From positions 1-64,000 of the forward strand of contig JAKPDL010000182.1 of the NCBI GenBank assembly GCA_029552825.1: a stretch of 64,000 nt of DNA, in the 5' to 3' direction. Below are positions 43,371 to 50,567 of the stretch, piece by piece; position 1 is the stretch's first letter, and every line of letters begins with the position of its first letter. The notes under the pieces are model-generated. The model was not told the origin of the DNA and did no database searches. It saw nothing but the letters and a program-made list of their open reading frames with translations. Made by a program: the position numbers and the translations under genes. Source of the DNA: Bacteroidota bacterium. GTDB taxonomy: Bacteria > Bacteroidota > Bacteroidia > Bacteroidales > VadinHA17.

Positions 43371-44225
43371 ATGAAAAAAGAGTTTGTCATTAAACCCATG
43401 TCGGGTTACATCGCTCTGCTGGCAGCATTATTGTTTCTGGGCGGGGCAATTGCCGGATTTATTTATGAATTAATCTGGCCTGGAATTGTTCTTACGGTAC
43501 TTTTTATTTTTACCGTGATTGGGTTAACAATAGTTTACCCGAATGAATCATGTGTTACAGTTCTGTTTGGGGCATATCGGGGCACTATAAAGGAGAATGG
43601 ATTTTTCTGGGTTAATCCTTTTTATCTCAGGCGCAAGATTTCATTGCGTGCAAGGAATTTTGACAGTGAGCCCATCAAGGTAAACGATAAAATCGGAAAT
43701 CCCATTAAAATAGGGCTGGTTCTGGTATGGAAAGTGGAGGATACCTATAAGGCGGCATTTGAAGTTGATGATTATCAGCATTTTGTGCTGGTACAAAGTG
43801 ATGCTGCACTTCGTAAACTTGCGGGATTGTATCCTTATGATAATTTTGAAGATCATGAAGCTACCCTTGCACTTCGTAGCGGAGGCGAAGAGATTAACAA
43901 CGAGCTTGAGCGGGAAATTAGCGAAAGGCTTGCGATAGCAGGAATAAATGTGATTGAAGCAAGAATCAATTACATTGCCTATGCAGAGGAAATTGCCAAT
44001 GCAATGCTCCGGAGGCAACAGGCAACTGCTGTTGTTTCAGCAAGGTACAAAATTGTTGAAGGAGCTGTATCGATGGTTCAGATGGCTCTCGAACAACTGT
44101 CCGACAAAAAAATTGTTGAGCTCGATGAAGAGAAAAAAGCTGCGATGGTCAGTAATCTGATGGTGGTACTTTGTGCCGACAGGGATGCCACCCCTGTAGT
44201 CAATACAGGAACATTGTATACCTGA
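43371..44225 (+). CDS. SPFH (stomatin/prohibitin) domain membrane protein
   Basis: 284 residues. Two membrane segments near 12-33 and 36-55, then an SPFH domain (VYPNESCVTVLFGAYRGTIKENGFFWVNPF, IKVNDKIGNPIKIGLVLVWKVED), followed by a helical segment (AEEIANAMLRRQQATAVVSARYKIVEGAVSMV) expected to oligomerise. Such proteins form membrane scaffolds or microdomains and often partner a protease; none adjoins. The next gene, 3 bases on, is an Arc-type DNA-binding protein. I recall this pair as recurrent in bacteria. Confidence 0.9.
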   Translation: MKKEFVIKPMSGYIALLAALLFLGGAIAGFIYELIWPGIVLTVLFIFTVIGLTIVYPNESCVTVLFGAYRGTIKENGFFWVNPFYLRRKISLRARNFDSEPIKVNDKIGNPIKIGLVLVWKVEDTYKAAFEVDDYQHFVLVQSDAALRKLAGLYPYDNFEDHEATLALRSGGEEINNELEREISERLAIAGINVIEARINYIAYAEEIANAMLRRQQATAVVSARYKIVEGAVSMVQMALEQLSDKKIVELDEEKKAAMVSNLMVVLCADRDATPVVNTGTLYT

Positions 44226-44442: not shown

Positions 44443-45147
44443 TTACTGGTTCAGGAAATAAATGGAATGGCAGGCAGCAATGCCTGCCGTTTCAGTTCTT
44501 AATCGACTTGGGCCAAGATGGACAGATCTGAATCCCATCTTCTCTGCAGCCCTTATTTCATCATCAGTAAAATCTCCTTCAGGACCAATAAGAAAAAGTA
44601 CGTCTTCTCCTTTCTTATATATTCCGGATACATGCTCTCTTGTGAAATTGGCCGAACAATGTGCTATAAGCTTTATACCATTAAAATCAGCAGAAATAAA
44701 ACTGTTAAAATCAATCGACTCATTCAGGTTCGTCAGATATGTTTTCAGCGATTGCTTCATCGCCGAAATTATTATTTTCTTTATTCTTTCTGGTTTTATG
44801 TTCTTCTTTTCGGTGTTTTTGCATATAACAGGTGTGATTTCATCCACACCAATCTCAACGCATTTTTCAACCAGCCAGTCAAACCTTTCAGGATTTTTCA
44901 GTGGAGATACAGCCAGATGCAGTCTGTAAGGTCTTGGCTGAAAATCTTTTATGACTTTTGTTATTCTGACAGTACACGCCTCAGGGTCTGGCTCTGAAAT
45001 AACTCCCTGATAAAGGTTTCCTGTACCGTCAATGAGTTTTACAGGATCGTTTTTTTTCAGACGCAGAACTTTCACACAATGCCTGGATTCTGTAACGTCG
45101 AGAATACACTTTTCGCCTTTGATGCCTGAAGCGTAAAAAATATGCAT
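44443..45147 (-). CDS. rsmE: 16S rRNA (uracil(1498)-N3)-methyltransferase RsmE
   Basis: 234 residues from the ATG at 45147 (MHIFYASGI, the usual RsmE start); a GTG at 45171, overlapping the previous stop, would add eight residues. The N-terminal PUA-like domain has HCVKVLRLKKNDPVKLIDGTG; the SPOUT knot carries FLIGPEGDFTDDEI, LGPSRLRTETA. It methylates U1498 in the 30S decoding region. It follows the 1494-codon gene with a gap of 20 bases or a 4-base overlap, depending on the start. Confidence 0.93.
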   Translation of the reverse strand: MHIFYASGIKGEKCILDVTESRHCVKVLRLKKNDPVKLIDGTGNLYQGVISEPDPEACTVRITKVIKDFQPRPYRLHLAVSPLKNPERFDWLVEKCVEIGVDEITPVICKNTEKKNIKPERIKKIIISAMKQSLKTYLTNLNESIDFNSFISADFNGIKLIAHCSANFTREHVSGIYKKGEDVLFLIGPEGDFTDDEIRAAEKMGFRSVHLGPSRLRTETAGIAACHSIYFLNQ

Positions 45148-45167
45148 TCCTGAAAGAATTATTATGT

Positions 45168-48100
45168 TCACTTTTGTTCTTGTTCTTCAGCCTGATCCGA
45201 AGTCATACGCTGCAAAAATCTCGGCAGCCTGTCTTCAACGGCTATCATGTATGTGTATGGCACCCGGGTTGAGGATTCAGGATGCGTACGAACTTTCTCC
45301 TTAAGGGTAGAGATAAGAGTATTATATTCAAGATTGCTTGACTGTGTCATCAGAACACCTCTGAAGTATGAGAAGTAGTACCAGGTTGAATTATCTGCTT
45401 TAAGATATATATCGAGCATATCACCAGATCTTCTCCTCTGTATTTCAATAAATCCGTCGACGTAAACATTCACAGCATTTGAGCCTATCAGTCCAATTCC
45501 AATTTTACCCTTTGAACGGAATGAGGAAGTTGGTTCGTTCCAGTAGAGTTTCACATCGTTCAGCAGCAGCTCATATGGGTATTCCCTCGGCAAGTTTCTG
45601 GTTGTTCCGAACAGACCTATTTCTTCATTTATTCTTGTTGCTACAGATTCTCCTAAAAGGTCTTTCATGGCTTTTTTGTAGAATTCTGTATTAAGATTGA
45701 CCGGTGCCAGTGCTGGTACCCTCCTTATCTCATTGCTCATCATTTCGAGTGCTTGCGGGGAGAAATAGAAATCGAGAGCAATAACGGCTTCAAAGTTCAC
45801 TTTGCCCGAATCGATATTGTGAATTACCTTGCCTGCGGCAGCCATTTTCAGGTGGTCATAATTTGCGCCGAAATTAAGCTGACCCTCACCCGAGAGAATA
45901 CAATAATTTTTATCAAGAGTGATCATGTTCCCAGGCAGTGAAAGGTCGGCAAGTTTTTCCATTGATGCAATTCTATATACTCCTTTTTCCTTCTCATACC
46001 ACAATGCGCCCTGTGCGTTGACTATCTGGGCGTCGCTCCAGCTTTTCCTCTCAGAAAGAAATGCCGGATAAATATGGGCGGAATCCGTTGATATGAATGA
46101 GCCCGAATATACTGGATTGTCATTAATATCCCTTACCTTTTCGGCTATAGGGATAATAACCATTTTCGGGTTTATGCTGGATTTAAATTTTACGTTATAG
46201 CTTTTGAAACTGCAGTTATGAACAATTCCGGCAGCCCCGGTAAATGTTAGGTAATCGTCCTGCGCCGAGAGCATTACATCGCCTGTAAAGGTAAATGCAG
46301 GGCTGAGCATAAAATTCTGAGTAACAGGAATGTATCCTGTTGCTGATGTAATACCTTTATCGGATGTTATTTTCGGGAAGTTAATCTGCTGGATATTGCC
46401 GCTTTCATCAACATAGTTATAAGTTGCACTCCCTGAGTAGCTGCGAGTATTTTCAATGACTATGTTTCCTGAATGAAGCAAATGCTTGTTATTGACTGCA
46501 ATAACAGCATTCTGAAGAGGTTGAATCCTTGCTCCCCTTTCAATTGTTATTCTGCCTTTATCGGGCTGAATAAGAGCATCTGCGATGTGTATGTAATTAA
46601 TGTTTTCAGCAATAACAACTTCCTGATTAAGATCATATCTTCCTTTCCATGATGTGAATGCGATAGTGTCTTTTATAATATTGGTTGCAAAGAAGGTGGG
46701 TTTGTCAAGCTTATTAAAGTCGAGTTTCAGCAGTTCTTCCGGTGACATAAGTGGTGTTTCAGCTTTACCCCTCTGTTCCATGTTAAGAATCCTGTTTTTC
46801 ATATCGTACTGAAAATCTGTCATTGTACAGATATATTGTATTTCGGGGAACTTTACCAGGGATGTGCCTGTATTAAGGCTGAATTTCGACTGGTACGAAT
46901 TGAAGTCGATAGTTACATTGACATTTTCAGCAAGAAACCCGATGGCCTCACCCCGGGTTGATTTTAGGTTATAGTCAGCTGTATCGCTTTGAATTATGTT
47001 TTCTGCAAAGTTGAATTTGTTTGAAATAATTCTGGAGTCTGTAATGTCAATTATTCCCGAACCCGATAATCTTTCCGGGGTCAGAATAATTTTTCCGTCA
47101 AGTTGTGTGCCATTGCCAAACATATCAAACTTTTTCCCGGGAGCATTGCTTGCAATCCATTCATCAGTTGAGGTTAACCATTTAACCGATACATCGTTGG
47201 ATGAGAGCACCGGAAAACGACCGCTTCCGTCAGGTGATATTGTAAACGAACGGGCAAAGGTTATCATTGAGTCGGGAAAGAACCTGAATTCATCCGATTC
47301 TGTTTCAGAAGTAATCCTTCTTAGTTTACCGCTGCCAGTCAGACCTTTGTTGCTCATTGAGATCATATTGTATAATCTGCCCTTGCCATCATATACTTCA
47401 ATTCCATCAGAGGGAATATTCATTGTAAATCCAAGAGAGTTGTCTTCCTGAATTATCAGGTATTGTTTCGTTGGTTTTATAATGTTTCCCGCGTGGAATT
47501 CTCCAGGGAGATTCATCATTTCATTTGTGTAATGATCTATGTTATCGTAGGTGAATGGCTCAATCCTGAAATAAAAGTCCTGTTGTTTGTAAATTCCTTC
47601 AAGCCCTGGTATTTTATCATAGAAAATATATGAATAGGTGGTCGCATTGATAATAGGATACTGTTTAAGGCTTCTCAATCCTGATTTGTTTTTCGGGTCA
47701 TCTATATATAATTCAGCTGTTGTAAGCTGTATCAGGTTCTCGACATCCTTAATCAGTGGTCTTCCCATTGCATCTCTTTCCCCGGTTTCAACAGCTATTC
47801 TTATTGAATCAATTTTGTGAAGGTTGATTTTAAAAGTGTCATAATCGAATACAAAATTGTGTCCGAAAATTGTAAAAAGCCCTGCTTCAACAACTCCGTC
47901 GAATGAAATTTTCCTGTTTTTCCCTATTTCAATTCTCTGGTTGTACGGATAGAGAGATACCATTTGTGAATCGCTCAGAAAAATATTTCTTACCCCGTTT
48001 ACTGTCAGACGGAAGCTATTAAGGTCGAGAAATGCATTTTCTACCGGAGCGTTTGTTTCGCTCATAAAAGAAATCACATCATAATCTTTCTTCTTTGCAT

Positions 48101-49652
48101 ATGCATTTATGAAGTCATCCACTTTGCTTTTTATAGTCACTTCATTATTAACCCTGTCGTAGAAAAGAAAGCCCCTGTTGGTAAGGTCGATGCACAGGCC
48201 GGTTACGGCTTCCTCAGGTTTCTTCATCCATTTTGCAAATTCTTTTACAGGAAACGTGTTTGAATAAAACCAATCGGCAAACTGCCTCAGGCGGTAAAGT
48301 GGATGATATTCGTCAATGCCAGCAAGTCGTTCGAAATATGTTGAATTGAAAAATGAAGCTGACTCGAATCTTGCCTGGCCAAGTGAAGCTCCCCTTGAGC
48401 GGGAAAGAATTACTGTCGATTGGTTCATGTTCCAGATAAGGTTTTCGAAATATATATCGAAACCATGAAAGGAATCAAACCAGGGACTTTTTGCTATTGG
48501 GTTGTTACTTCTGAAAAGGTTTATTTCACGGTTTTCAGCATTATATGAAAAGCCTATGCTTGAATGGTGAATGGAATCATTCCCCAGATAAAAAGTAGCA
48601 GATGATTCCTGAGTGTTTATTCCTCCGCGTGTAATGAGACAAGTGTTGGCAGCAACCTTCAGGTAAAGGGTGTCATTTCTGAAAATTGTAATGCGTGCAG
48701 GAGTGAAAACATCACCCATGCCTATTACTGTAGAACCTTCAAGCCTTATACCCCCTTCATAATTTACATCTTTGAAAATATTTTTTATTGCAAAGGTTTT
48801 GGTGTATGTTTCAAACCTGGGATACCTGATGTTTTCACGATTACCCGAAAGTGAAACCTGGTCGGTAAGTTTTCCGTATTCGGGTTTTTCAAAGAAAGTT
48901 TTATAGGTAAATAGTGCAGAATCAACCTCATATGCAGCCCTCTGAAGATTAATAGAATAATTCCTGATTTCTGCAAATGCTTCATTTCGGGGATAACCTG
49001 CCTTTTCAAAATAAACCGTACCAATAACACCCCTGAACATGGTATTTTCAGGAAAATATTTTCCGGTTACGTCGTATATCTCTATACTATCTTTCTGGGA
49101 ATAGGCCGTTAGAGTTACATTTTGAGCATTTATAAAGAATGAAGTATCGTATTCAAATGTTGTATTCTGTCCTTTTATCTTCCATTTTACCGTTGCTGAT
49201 TCGAAAACAATACCTGATGTTACGAACGAGCTGGTATTTCTCAGGTGTCTGTCTATATTGTCGTTGTTGATGGCTGGTTTGTGTATCATGGCTCCAAGTC
49301 CAGTAAGCCAGGTGAGAAAATAGCCTTTGTTGCCTTTATATTGAGAGAGGTCGAGAAGTGTTTTCAGAAAGTCGATGAAATGAGGAACAGGCCTGAAGTT
49401 TCTGGCAGCCAGCAATGAGCTGATGCCCATAATATTTTCAGCAATATCTGAGGAAAAATATGCGCTGTCCCAGCTGGACGTAAATTTACTCAGAATGGCA
49501 CTCTGGTCTGGTGTGAGGTTCGGGCCCATATATGCAGCCAGTTCTGCGGAGAATTTTTCCCGTTCCCCTGAGAAAACCTTTCTGCCCTGCGTAAAAGCAC
49601 TACCTGAGGCAAAGATGAGTGCCAGACACGTAATAATCAGCTTTTTCAGCAT
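45168..49652 (-). CDS. Giant secreted protein of unknown function, 1494 residues
   Basis: It begins with a signal peptide (MLKKLIITCLALIFASGSAFTQG). Residues 30-130 are helical, and the rest alternates short beta strands with D/N-rich turns across many blocks of about 40-60 residues, resembling OstA/LptD- or AsmA-like layered beta structure without a recognisable named domain. Phrases such as KIDSIRIAVETGERDAMG, FSLNTGTSLVKFP and GKIGIGLIGSNAVNVYVDGFIEI recur in style. No catalytic motif, lipobox or T9SS C-terminal domain is clear. The C-terminus (EEQEQK) is charged. It is co-oriented with rsmE. Similar very long proteins occur as hypothetical proteins in Bacteroidota, probably exported to the periplasm or outer membrane. 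Confidence 0.85.
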   Translation of the reverse strand: MLKKLIITCLALIFASGSAFTQGRKVFSGEREKFSAELAAYMGPNLTPDQSAILSKFTSSWDSAYFSSDIAENIMGISSLLAARNFRPVPHFIDFLKTLLDLSQYKGNKGYFLTWLTGLGAMIHKPAINNDNIDRHLRNTSSFVTSGIVFESATVKWKIKGQNTTFEYDTSFFINAQNVTLTAYSQKDSIEIYDVTGKYFPENTMFRGVIGTVYFEKAGYPRNEAFAEIRNYSINLQRAAYEVDSALFTYKTFFEKPEYGKLTDQVSLSGNRENIRYPRFETYTKTFAIKNIFKDVNYEGGIRLEGSTVIGMGDVFTPARITIFRNDTLYLKVAANTCLITRGGINTQESSATFYLGNDSIHHSSIGFSYNAENREINLFRSNNPIAKSPWFDSFHGFDIYFENLIWNMNQSTVILSRSRGASLGQARFESASFFNSTYFERLAGIDEYHPLYRLRQFADWFYSNTFPVKEFAKWMKKPEEAVTGLCIDLTNRGFLFYDRVNNEVTIKSKVDDFINAYAKKKDYDVISFMSETNAPVENAFLDLNSFRLTVNGVRNIFLSDSQMVSLYPYNQRIEIGKNRKISFDGVVEAGLFTIFGHNFVFDYDTFKINLHKIDSIRIAVETGERDAMGRPLIKDVENLIQLTTAELYIDDPKNKSGLRSLKQYPIINATTYSYIFYDKIPGLEGIYKQQDFYFRIEPFTYDNIDHYTNEMMNLPGEFHAGNIIKPTKQYLIIQEDNSLGFTMNIPSDGIEVYDGKGRLYNMISMSNKGLTGSGKLRRITSETESDEFRFFPDSMITFARSFTISPDGSGRFPVLSSNDVSVKWLTSTDEWIASNAPGKKFDMFGNGTQLDGKIILTPERLSGSGIIDITDSRIISNKFNFAENIIQSDTADYNLKSTRGEAIGFLAENVNVTIDFNSYQSKFSLNTGTSLVKFPEIQYICTMTDFQYDMKNRILNMEQRGKAETPLMSPEELLKLDFNKLDKPTFFATNIIKDTIAFTSWKGRYDLNQEVVIAENINYIHIADALIQPDKGRITIERGARIQPLQNAVIAVNNKHLLHSGNIVIENTRSYSGSATYNYVDESGNIQQINFPKITSDKGITSATGYIPVTQNFMLSPAFTFTGDVMLSAQDDYLTFTGAAGIVHNCSFKSYNVKFKSSINPKMVIIPIAEKVRDINDNPVYSGSFISTDSAHIYPAFLSERKSWSDAQIVNAQGALWYEKEKGVYRIASMEKLADLSLPGNMITLDKNYCILSGEGQLNFGANYDHLKMAAAGKVIHNIDSGKVNFEAVIALDFYFSPQALEMMSNEIRRVPALAPVNLNTEFYKKAMKDLLGESVATRINEEIGLFGTTRNLPREYPYELLLNDVKLYWNEPTSSFRSKGKIGIGLIGSNAVNVYVDGFIEIQRRRSGDMLDIYLKADNSTWYYFSYFRGVLMTQSSNLEYNTLISTLKEKVRTHPESSTRVPYTYMIAVEDRLPRFLQRMTSDQAEEQEQK

Positions 49653-49808: not shown

Positions 49809-50567
49809 TTATTTTACTGCTTCCACAATAGCGCAAAATTCTTCTTTTTTCAGTGAAGCGCCTCCAATCAACCCTCCGTCAACATCGGGCATTGAGAATA
49901 GCTCAGCAGCATTTGATGCCTTACAGCTGCCACCGTACAGGATGGTTGTGTTTTCACTGATACCTTTACCATATTTTTCTGCAATCAGTTTACGGATAAA
50001 CGACTGCATTTCCTGAGCCTGTTCAGGCGTTGCGTTCAGGCCTGTTCCTATTGCCCAGACAGGTTCATAGGCAATTACAACATTTTTAAATTCATCTTCA
50101 GTCAGATTAAAAAGGCCTTCGGTAAGTTGCTCTTTTACAACATCAAAGTGAATGCCCTGTTCTCTTTCTTTCAGAATTTCACCGCAGCAGTAAATAACTT
50201 TAAGTCCGGTTGAAAGAGCCATCCTCACTTTTTTGTTAAGCATTTTATTATCCTCTTTAAACAATGTTCTTCTTTCCGAATGGCCAATAATTACATATTC
50301 TGCACCAGTGCTTTTTATCATACTGCATGAAATTTCCCCGGTAAACGCACCAGAAGGTTCTGAATAGCAGTTTTGTGCACCAAACTTAATATTACTGTCT
50401 TTCAGAACATCTTTCATCACGGAAAGATGAATAAATGGAGTGCAGAGTACAATTTCTGCTTTCGGAGTTTTTCCGGCGAAATATTCTTTTACTCCTTTTG
50501 CAAGTTCAATGCCTGAACTTAGATCCATGTTCATTTTCCAGTTTCCTGCAACAATTTTCTTTCTCAT
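49809..50567 (-). CDS. tpiA: Triosephosphate isomerase
   Basis: 252 residues. Substrate Lys in GNWKMN (10-15), catalytic His in IIGHSERR, catalytic Glu in AYEPVWAIGTG, and phosphate-binding YGGSCKASN and DGGLIGGASL. It interconverts dihydroxyacetone phosphate and glyceraldehyde 3-phosphate. Last gene of its operon. Confidence 0.97.
   Translation of the reverse strand: MRKKIVAGNWKMNMDLSSGIELAKGVKEYFAGKTPKAEIVLCTPFIHLSVMKDVLKDSNIKFGAQNCYSEPSGAFTGEISCSMIKSTGAEYVIIGHSERRTLFKEDNKMLNKKVRMALSTGLKVIYCCGEILKEREQGIHFDVVKEQLTEGLFNLTEDEFKNVVIAYEPVWAIGTGLNATPEQAQEMQSFIRKLIAEKYGKGISENTTILYGGSCKASNAAELFSMPDVDGGLIGGASLKKEEFCAIVEAVK

Follow-up and report, generated by a model that had tools for sequence, protein, structure and literature searches.

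Contig JAKPDL010000182.1 of a Bacteroidota bacterium (assembly GCA_029552825.1; order Bacteroidales) carries a gene whose product, here called P0001, raises a simple question: what kind of envelope protein is it, and what might it do? The window, i.e., the whole stretch of DNA analysed, comprises positions 1 to 64,000 of the contig. A preliminary description made from the sequence had called this the largest gene of the window, with 1494 residues. The open reading frame (ORF) was confirmed and lies on the minus strand, which that description had not given; it is the longest in the window, the runner-up encoding 1022 aa, and the genome holds one copy. We propose, tentatively and with somewhat less than even confidence, that P0001 may be a soluble periplasmic β-groove or scaffold for outer-membrane building. 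Sequence evidence supports the anatomy of the protein well; the mechanism we infer.

Strand pairing, cysteines, export signal and winged helix

The preliminary description had read layered β structure in P0001, and hydrophobicity and covariation both support it. The mean hydrophobicity period is 3.5 in residues 25–150 and 2.0–2.25 in residues 150–440, 530–1250 (2.25) and 1355–1450. Covariation was scored by mean-field direct coupling analysis in alignment windows, with 252 sequences, two of which failed the family profile, leaving 250 including P0001 (effective number 210). Local ladders are those of separation 10–32; antiparallel and parallel ladders were scored separately and compared with shuffles within diagonals (3 and 20 shuffles for a set of 172 sequences, 12 for the 250). 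At threshold 5.5 the 250 sequences gave 41 local antiparallel ladders versus a shuffle mean of 11.8 (maximum 18), and at threshold 6.5 they gave 23 versus 1.8 (maximum 5). Local parallel ladders numbered 14 versus 9.3 at threshold 5.5, under the shuffle maximum of 15, on which count a parallel β-helix was rejected; at threshold 6.5 there were 3 versus 1.4 (maximum 4). With 172 sequences and threshold 5, the local counts were 46 antiparallel versus 14.8 (maximum 21) and 17 parallel versus 11.9 (maximum 18), and a small parallel excess is possible at threshold 6 (6 versus 2.0, maximum 5). Non-local antiparallel ladders in the two longer bins numbered 7 and 8 versus 3.3 and 3.0 (maxima 8 and 5), the longest bin being slightly above its maximum. 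Residues 23–150 contained no antiparallel ladder with 172 sequences (threshold 5) and one (114–141) with 250. As far as covariation can tell, the chain is thus shown to be dominated by neighbour-to-neighbour antiparallel pairing. Ladder spacing is about 14–17 residues per turn where ladders run on, and by our own estimate there may be roughly 55–70 strands. At a loose threshold of 4.5, the 172 sequences place hairpin midpoints in series at residues 794, 810, 830, 844, 858, 872, 884, 901, 918 and 936.

Internal repeats were found within the β region. Residues 750–824 match residues 841–914 with a profile-profile probability of 95.9% (E 5.7e-9; hhalign E-values refer to one comparison), a pair that stands outside the reversed control since the segments overlapped in that design. 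Among 48 forward pairs the best gave 91.2% and 89.7%, the latter for residues 538–614 with 1002–1095, and the highest reversed-control pair gave 4.2%. Structure prediction, a check that the preliminary description had proposed, was run with AlphaFold2 on three-row alignments, but the models were unusable, with a mean predicted local distance difference test score (pLDDT) of 32 for residues 1–780 and 28 for residues 690–1494.

Residues C1147 and C1251 behave as an all-or-none pair. In the 238 sequences with letters at both columns, both are Cys in 235, one alone in 0 and neither in 3; in an earlier set of 162 the figures were 157 for both, 0 and 0 for the single cysteines and 5 for neither. A C1147–C1251 disulfide, formed in an oxidising compartment, would be the natural reading of this pattern. 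Part of the cysteine co-occurrence is explained by shared ancestry, because other Cys columns also track 1251: columns 183 and 942, with Cys in 72% and 59%, are each associated with it (122/2/35/13 and 102/0/55/15). These two columns lack a clear Cys partner, and P0001 itself carries A183 and C942.

The signal peptide noted earlier in P0001 is borne out by the pattern of the family. A hydrophobic N-terminal stretch is present in 162 of 171 members, 151 of which have a small residue followed by Q, the call being made by our own rule of thumb, not SignalP. Q22, the predicted first residue after cleavage, is nearly invariant (90% or more), and according to PMC5837995, signal peptidase I of Bacteroidetes leaves an N-terminal Q on most substrates. 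A lipobox-like pattern occurs in 4 of the 171 members, and an internal transmembrane-like stretch is predicted in 7. P0001 is taken to be exported, most likely to the periplasm.

Library scans of the protein itself bear out the claim that P0001 has no known domain; once relatives are used, a divergent winged helix emerges at about residues 450–520. A profile of residues 436–532 built from 39 members gave 10 PDB matches at E up to 10, the best being transcription factor E and Lmo0651, both at 0.0055. Nine of the ten, three of them ADAR1, we take from their names to be winged-helix proteins; Fur6 was not placed. When the domains of the 39 single members were compared with Pfam, FeoC was matched by 6 of 39 and TFIIE_alpha by 5 of 39 (best 9.8e-6), followed by DnaD_N (5), HTH_IclR (4) and Fe_dep_repress (4); these figures are among the 25 families listed out of 45 at E up to 1, unrelated chance rows included. 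P0001's own 450–520 domain, taken alone, matched no winged-helix Pfam family. The low-confidence AlphaFold2 model has the order H-H-E-E-E there, and conserved residues D523-Y524-D525 and S531 follow directly after the domain. By secondary-structure pattern and profile similarity together, residues 450–520 are assigned to the winged-helix superfamily as a divergent member. DNA binding is unlikely, because the domain lies in an exported protein.

Family status, distribution and gene neighbourhood

The P0001 family is undescribed in the libraries searched here. P0001 gave no Pfam row at E up to 10, no PADLOC match, a single NCBIfam row (TraF, E 0.12, far under its cut-off and discarded as chance) and one chance-level PDB row (a transcriptional repressor, E 0.026), so that no match of the whole protein to a characterised family came from these scans. 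PDB profile searches with the C-terminal and N-terminal domains gave no row better than E 0.12. A Pfam scan of 32 members returned 20 families at E up to 1, none of them in more than two members; TFIIE_alpha, a winged helix, was alone in falling below 0.001 (two members, best 9.7e-5). No relative was found in viral contigs in two scans, each with a single relative as query, and a plasmid scan gave no family match. A literature search at the level of titles, with most subscription journals outside its coverage, found no title on the family, and a search on gene order yielded, again by title, a phytoplasma review only. As the preliminary description had it, no catalytic or anchoring motif was recognised in the family.

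That description had also supposed P0001 to be conserved, as indeed it is. Of 149 genomes in the order, 104 were matched by a search with a single sequence. In a Bacteroidia class sample of 395 genomes, a profile (A1) built from 37 members matched 324; some of the 71 genomes without a match are incomplete. Samples of the phylum gave 14 of 395 (single sequence) and 8 of 183 (profile), with all matches in the same class; as listed, these samples hold near-complete genomes with the share from other classes not stated, so their counts do not cover other classes. The phylum samples resemble well-studied lineages, in which the family seems rare, and it seems common in families represented chiefly by environmental genomes. 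Two named relatives, both from Bacteroidales metagenome-assembled genomes, match P0001 over nearly the full length, with 72–73% identity in the best segment. The 171 members were obtained from 185 locus records after removal of 7 duplicates or other genes and 7 without a frame of 1200 aa; their median length is 1503 aa (range 1357–1778, some being cut by locus ends). There are 37 invariant columns, of which 19 are glycines; N655 and K656 are invariant, with S657 and G658 close to it. Between L002 and L003, which are close relatives, the ratio of nonsynonymous to synonymous divergence (dN/dS) is 0.027/0.245; for P0001 versus L002, dN is 0.19 and dS was not computable. The P0001 ORF is a real gene because relatives of similar length and layout occur across Bacteroidia, and because dN/dS is low for L002 versus L003.

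The gene was described as lying in core DNA between rsmE and tpiA. Both neighbours were identified in the window (Table 1), but the arrangement is not general. Where the upstream ORF was usable (159 loci), the gene directly upstream is of prmA type in 104 (one on the other strand) and tpiA in 17; four prmA examples score above the NF001785 cut-off. Where 700 bases of sequence were available on the side in question, tpiA lies upstream on the same strand in 96 of 156 loci and plsY directly downstream on the same strand in 65 of 160 (median gap 36 bases), and in the survey of both sides 47 loci hold both. Clustering of ORFs gives plsY as the following ORF in 60 of 163 loci; four PlsY examples pass TIGR00023 and the remaining ones were assigned by similarity. 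The plsY-linked members share as little as 24% identity, and with clustering at 50% identity plsY is linked in 26 of 85 clusters. From plsY comes a weak hint of lipid work, because with prmA and tpiA also linked the gene cluster mixes housekeeping roles. Linkage to rsmE as a general rule was rejected: of 171 loci, 7 have it close by downstream and 10 at a greater distance. A metallophosphoesterase gene lies just downstream in a cluster of 9 loci (e.g., L025, L030, L032, L037, L052 and L104), on the opposite strand in 8; that of L030 is PF12850.

In the genome of P0001 itself, plsY is on a different contig, and the same-strand genes upstream are tpiA, a BT_3928-family gene (MauE/DoxX type) and tmk. 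The true start of rsmE is probably an ATG near 45147, because the best profile match begins only at the 9th residue. Convergent to rsmE is an SPFH/Band 7 gene of 284 aa (43371–44225; Pfam PF01145, E 7.2e-22); among three compared loci the SPFH match occurs in L001, the window's own locus, and not in L002 or L003.

Table 1. Positions in the window of the P0001 gene, its predicted parts and its flanking genes
Feature	Residues	Positions	Strand	Remarks
Family gene (P0001)		45168..49652	minus	ATG start, 1494 codons plus stop, without internal stop
Signal peptide	1-21	49590..49652	minus	predicted; inferred cleavage before Q22 (Q-rule type)
N-terminal helical domain	28-145	49218..49571	minus	hydrophobicity period 3.5; helices are the best part of a low-confidence model
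Beta region 1	150-440	48333..49205	minus	period 2.25; 8 antiparallel and 0 parallel local ladders in 150-445
Inserted winged-helix domain	450-520	48093..48305	minus	profile searches; low-confidence model
Beta region 2	530-1300	45753..48065	minus	33 antiparallel and 14 parallel local ladders in 520-1300, threshold 5
Family signature ending N655-K656-S657-G658	648-658	47679..47711	minus	conservation
Internal repeat copy A	750-824	47181..47405	minus	profile-profile match to copy B
Internal repeat copy B	841-914	46911..47132	minus	profile-profile match to copy A
Cysteine C1147	1147	46212..46214	minus	all-or-none pair with C1251; inferred disulfide
Cysteine C1251	1251	45900..45902	minus	all-or-none pair with C1147
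C-terminal helical segment	1298-1345	45618..45761	minus	weak: helices of a model, all residues pLDDT < 50
C-terminal beta domain	1355-1450	45303..45590	minus	period 2.0; 5 antiparallel and 2 parallel local ladders in 1350-1450
rsmE		44443..45171	minus	next gene downstream; best profile match starts at 9th residue
tpiA		49809..50567	minus	next gene upstream

Possible roles: groove, scaffold or surface protein

In the proposed mechanism, the antiparallel strands of P0001 would form a long open groove or scaffold braced by the C1147–C1251 disulfide; docking would fall to three modules, namely the N-terminal helical part, the winged helix and the C-terminal domain. The protein would carry or guide lipid or outer-membrane components across the periplasm, in a role that may overlap with that of TamB. 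We counted for this proposal the 41 local antiparallel ladders, the internal repeats, the Cys pair and the signal peptide with its Q, and further the plsY linkage, the glycine-rich invariants without a catalytic motif, and a pattern of second TamBs in the class sample. TamB is matched in 382 of the 395 genomes, with two or more matches in 45 of 71 family-negative versus 39 of 324 family-positive genomes (odds ratio 12.6, Fisher p 2e-18, which ignores relatedness); the negatives are those genomes named in the TamB scan but not in the family matches, all completeness levels being kept. PlsY is present in 260 of the 324 positives and 25 of the 71 negatives. Dependence of the family on PlsY was rejected, given those 25 negatives with PlsY and the 64 positives without it. 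For PlsY, a glycerol-3-phosphate acyltransferase, no match was obtained in 110 of the 395 genomes.

A number of observations weigh against the groove proposal. Phylogeny confounds the link between absence of the family and a second TamB: the link rests mainly on genome families f2, f3, f4, f5, f6, f7, f75 and f77, none with a listed positive genome, and even there two TamBs occur in only 5 of 8 (f5) and 7 of 13 (f7). Two more families that lack the gene are f146, with one TamB, and f194, with none. Where both states occur in a family, the link is weak or absent; by counts read by eye from listings, two TamBs are found in negatives versus positives in 2 of 4 versus 0 of 4 (f11), 2 of 3 versus 1 of 2 (f8) and 1 of 4 versus 2 of 7 (f215), in one f220 negative, and in 0 of 9 negatives in f9, f181, f183, f192, f206, f209 and f211. 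In all, 39 genomes combine the gene with two TamBs, and 26 lack both the gene and a second TamB. Since prmA is linked more often than plsY, gene linkage tells little about a lipid role. The invariant residues D188, H363, S431, D523, D525, S531, D737 and D1025 are compatible with an enzyme. Neither Pfam nor profile-profile comparison links the family to a known groove protein, and unlike TamB and AsmA it has no predicted inner-membrane anchor. With 250 sequences, ladders fall inside the winged-helix stretch (441–517, 453–515 and 468–504), because of which the ladder score is not purely a β signal. Distant antiparallel pairs in exact register, 600–719 with 602–717 and 623–780 with 626–777 (172 sequences), suggest that region 540–790 is more complex than a plain meander; with 250 sequences F600–F719 and T623–I780 persist as single pairs, not as ladders at 5.5. 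Finally, both AlphaFold models are too poor to show a groove, a cavity or lipid binding.

An envelope scaffold of a structural or chaperone-like kind, serving outer-membrane proteins or lipoproteins, agrees with the topology evidence just as well; in it the winged helix would be a protein-protein docking module and there would be no lipid conduit. The size, the modular layout, the inferred disulfide and the lack of a recognised enzyme motif all agree with such a scaffold, but the plsY linkage and the TamB pattern weigh slightly towards a role in lipid or outer-membrane building, with the reservation that TamB may itself help to assemble proteins; on balance we consider this scaffold rather unlikely. 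It is quite unlikely, in our judgement, that P0001 is a multi-domain secreted or surface protein of many ordinary β-sandwich or propeller domains for binding, adhesion or polymer handling. A succession of about ten hairpins at residues 782–936 (loose threshold 4.5) is at odds with four-stranded blades, non-local ladders are few and the recurring neighbours are housekeeping genes; on the other side stand non-significant PDB rows to sialidases at residues 155–242 (E 0.3) and those non-local ladders that were found, with 8 in the longest-range bin versus a shuffle maximum of 5. An LptD-like outer-membrane β-barrel, alone or with a periplasmic part, would account for an antiparallel meander and a conserved Cys pair, but the estimated strands are far too many for one barrel and no OstA or LptD match was found. 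The C-terminal residue is mostly E, K, N or D, with F in only 8 of 171 members, so the C-terminal signature of barrels was not found, and we regard a barrel as very improbable.

A bolder version of the groove proposal would make P0001 a periplasmic bridge of a new class: a soluble β-groove with a bracing disulfide and a winged helix, widespread in Bacteroidia and overlooked as most well-studied lineages lack it, its absence being compensated by a second TamB. Taken as a whole this is doubtful. Still, a TamB-sized protein in so large a share of the class sample, without a whole-protein Pfam or NCBIfam model, points to an unstudied envelope component. Were P0001 a conduit for lipid or outer-membrane proteins, it would be an additional large periplasmic system next to TamB and Lpt. 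The way in which phospholipid reaches the outer membrane could then be tested in Bacteroidota, as could the reason why some lineages lack the family.

Comparison with known groove and winged-helix proteins

A strand topology that makes a long open groove is known for LptA, for AsmA and TamB, and for eukaryotic bridge-like proteins; LptA is a soluble exported antiparallel β protein with a groove, and LptD too has a conserved Cys pair. The preliminary description had likened P0001 to LptD/AsmA/TamB-type proteins and proposed profile searches against OstA, AsmA and TamB. These were run and gave no match. Neither TamB/AsmA nor OstA/LptD was found by Pfam in P0001 or, at E up to 1, among the families of the 32 members. 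Profile-profile comparison with 30 TamB sequences, taken with limited flanks and so mostly representing the C-terminal part, gave a probability of 1.4% (E 0.037), above the controls but far from significant, and comparison with 30 OstA_2 sequences gave 0.3% (E 0.23). Shuffled and reversed controls gave 0.0–0.2% with E 0.3 or more (TamB controls 0.1–0.2%, E 0.3–0.6). The test has limited power and may overlook a distant relationship, since TamB versus OstA_2 itself reached only 0.1%. Apart from P0001, the genome encodes a TamB and an OstA_2 protein. Membership in TamB or OstA was therefore rejected. P0001 is not filed in either family because the profile-profile values are not significant; that it works like them is possible, and the likeness survives to the extent that its strand topology is compatible with LptA- or TamB-like grooves. 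AsmA-like proteins form a β-taco (PMC12045153). Measured against a long antiparallel β-taco, the P0001 family has the antiparallel pairing of neighbours, and a groove is not observable in the models.

Like TamB and AsmA-like proteins (PF04357 and relatives), P0001 is exported and about 1500 aa long (the TamB length being judged by open frames), but it has a predicted cleaved signal peptide in place of a membrane anchor, a winged-helix insert and a conserved Cys pair. Like LptA/OstA (PF13100 OstA_2) it is an exported antiparallel β protein, but it is about three times longer than OstA_2 frames (roughly 500–600 aa) and has no profile link to them. The winged-helix stretch of the family resembles by profile those of TFE/TFIIE-alpha, PadR and GntR, but unlike those it sits in an exported protein. 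Flavobacterium johnsoniae is reported to possess TamB and TamB2 together with five other AsmA-like proteins, tamB and tamL being essential there (PMC12045153). TamB2 resembles P0001 in being an additional large exported protein that only some Bacteroidota have (PMC12045153); TamB2, however, is a TamB homologue, whereas the P0001 family is not.

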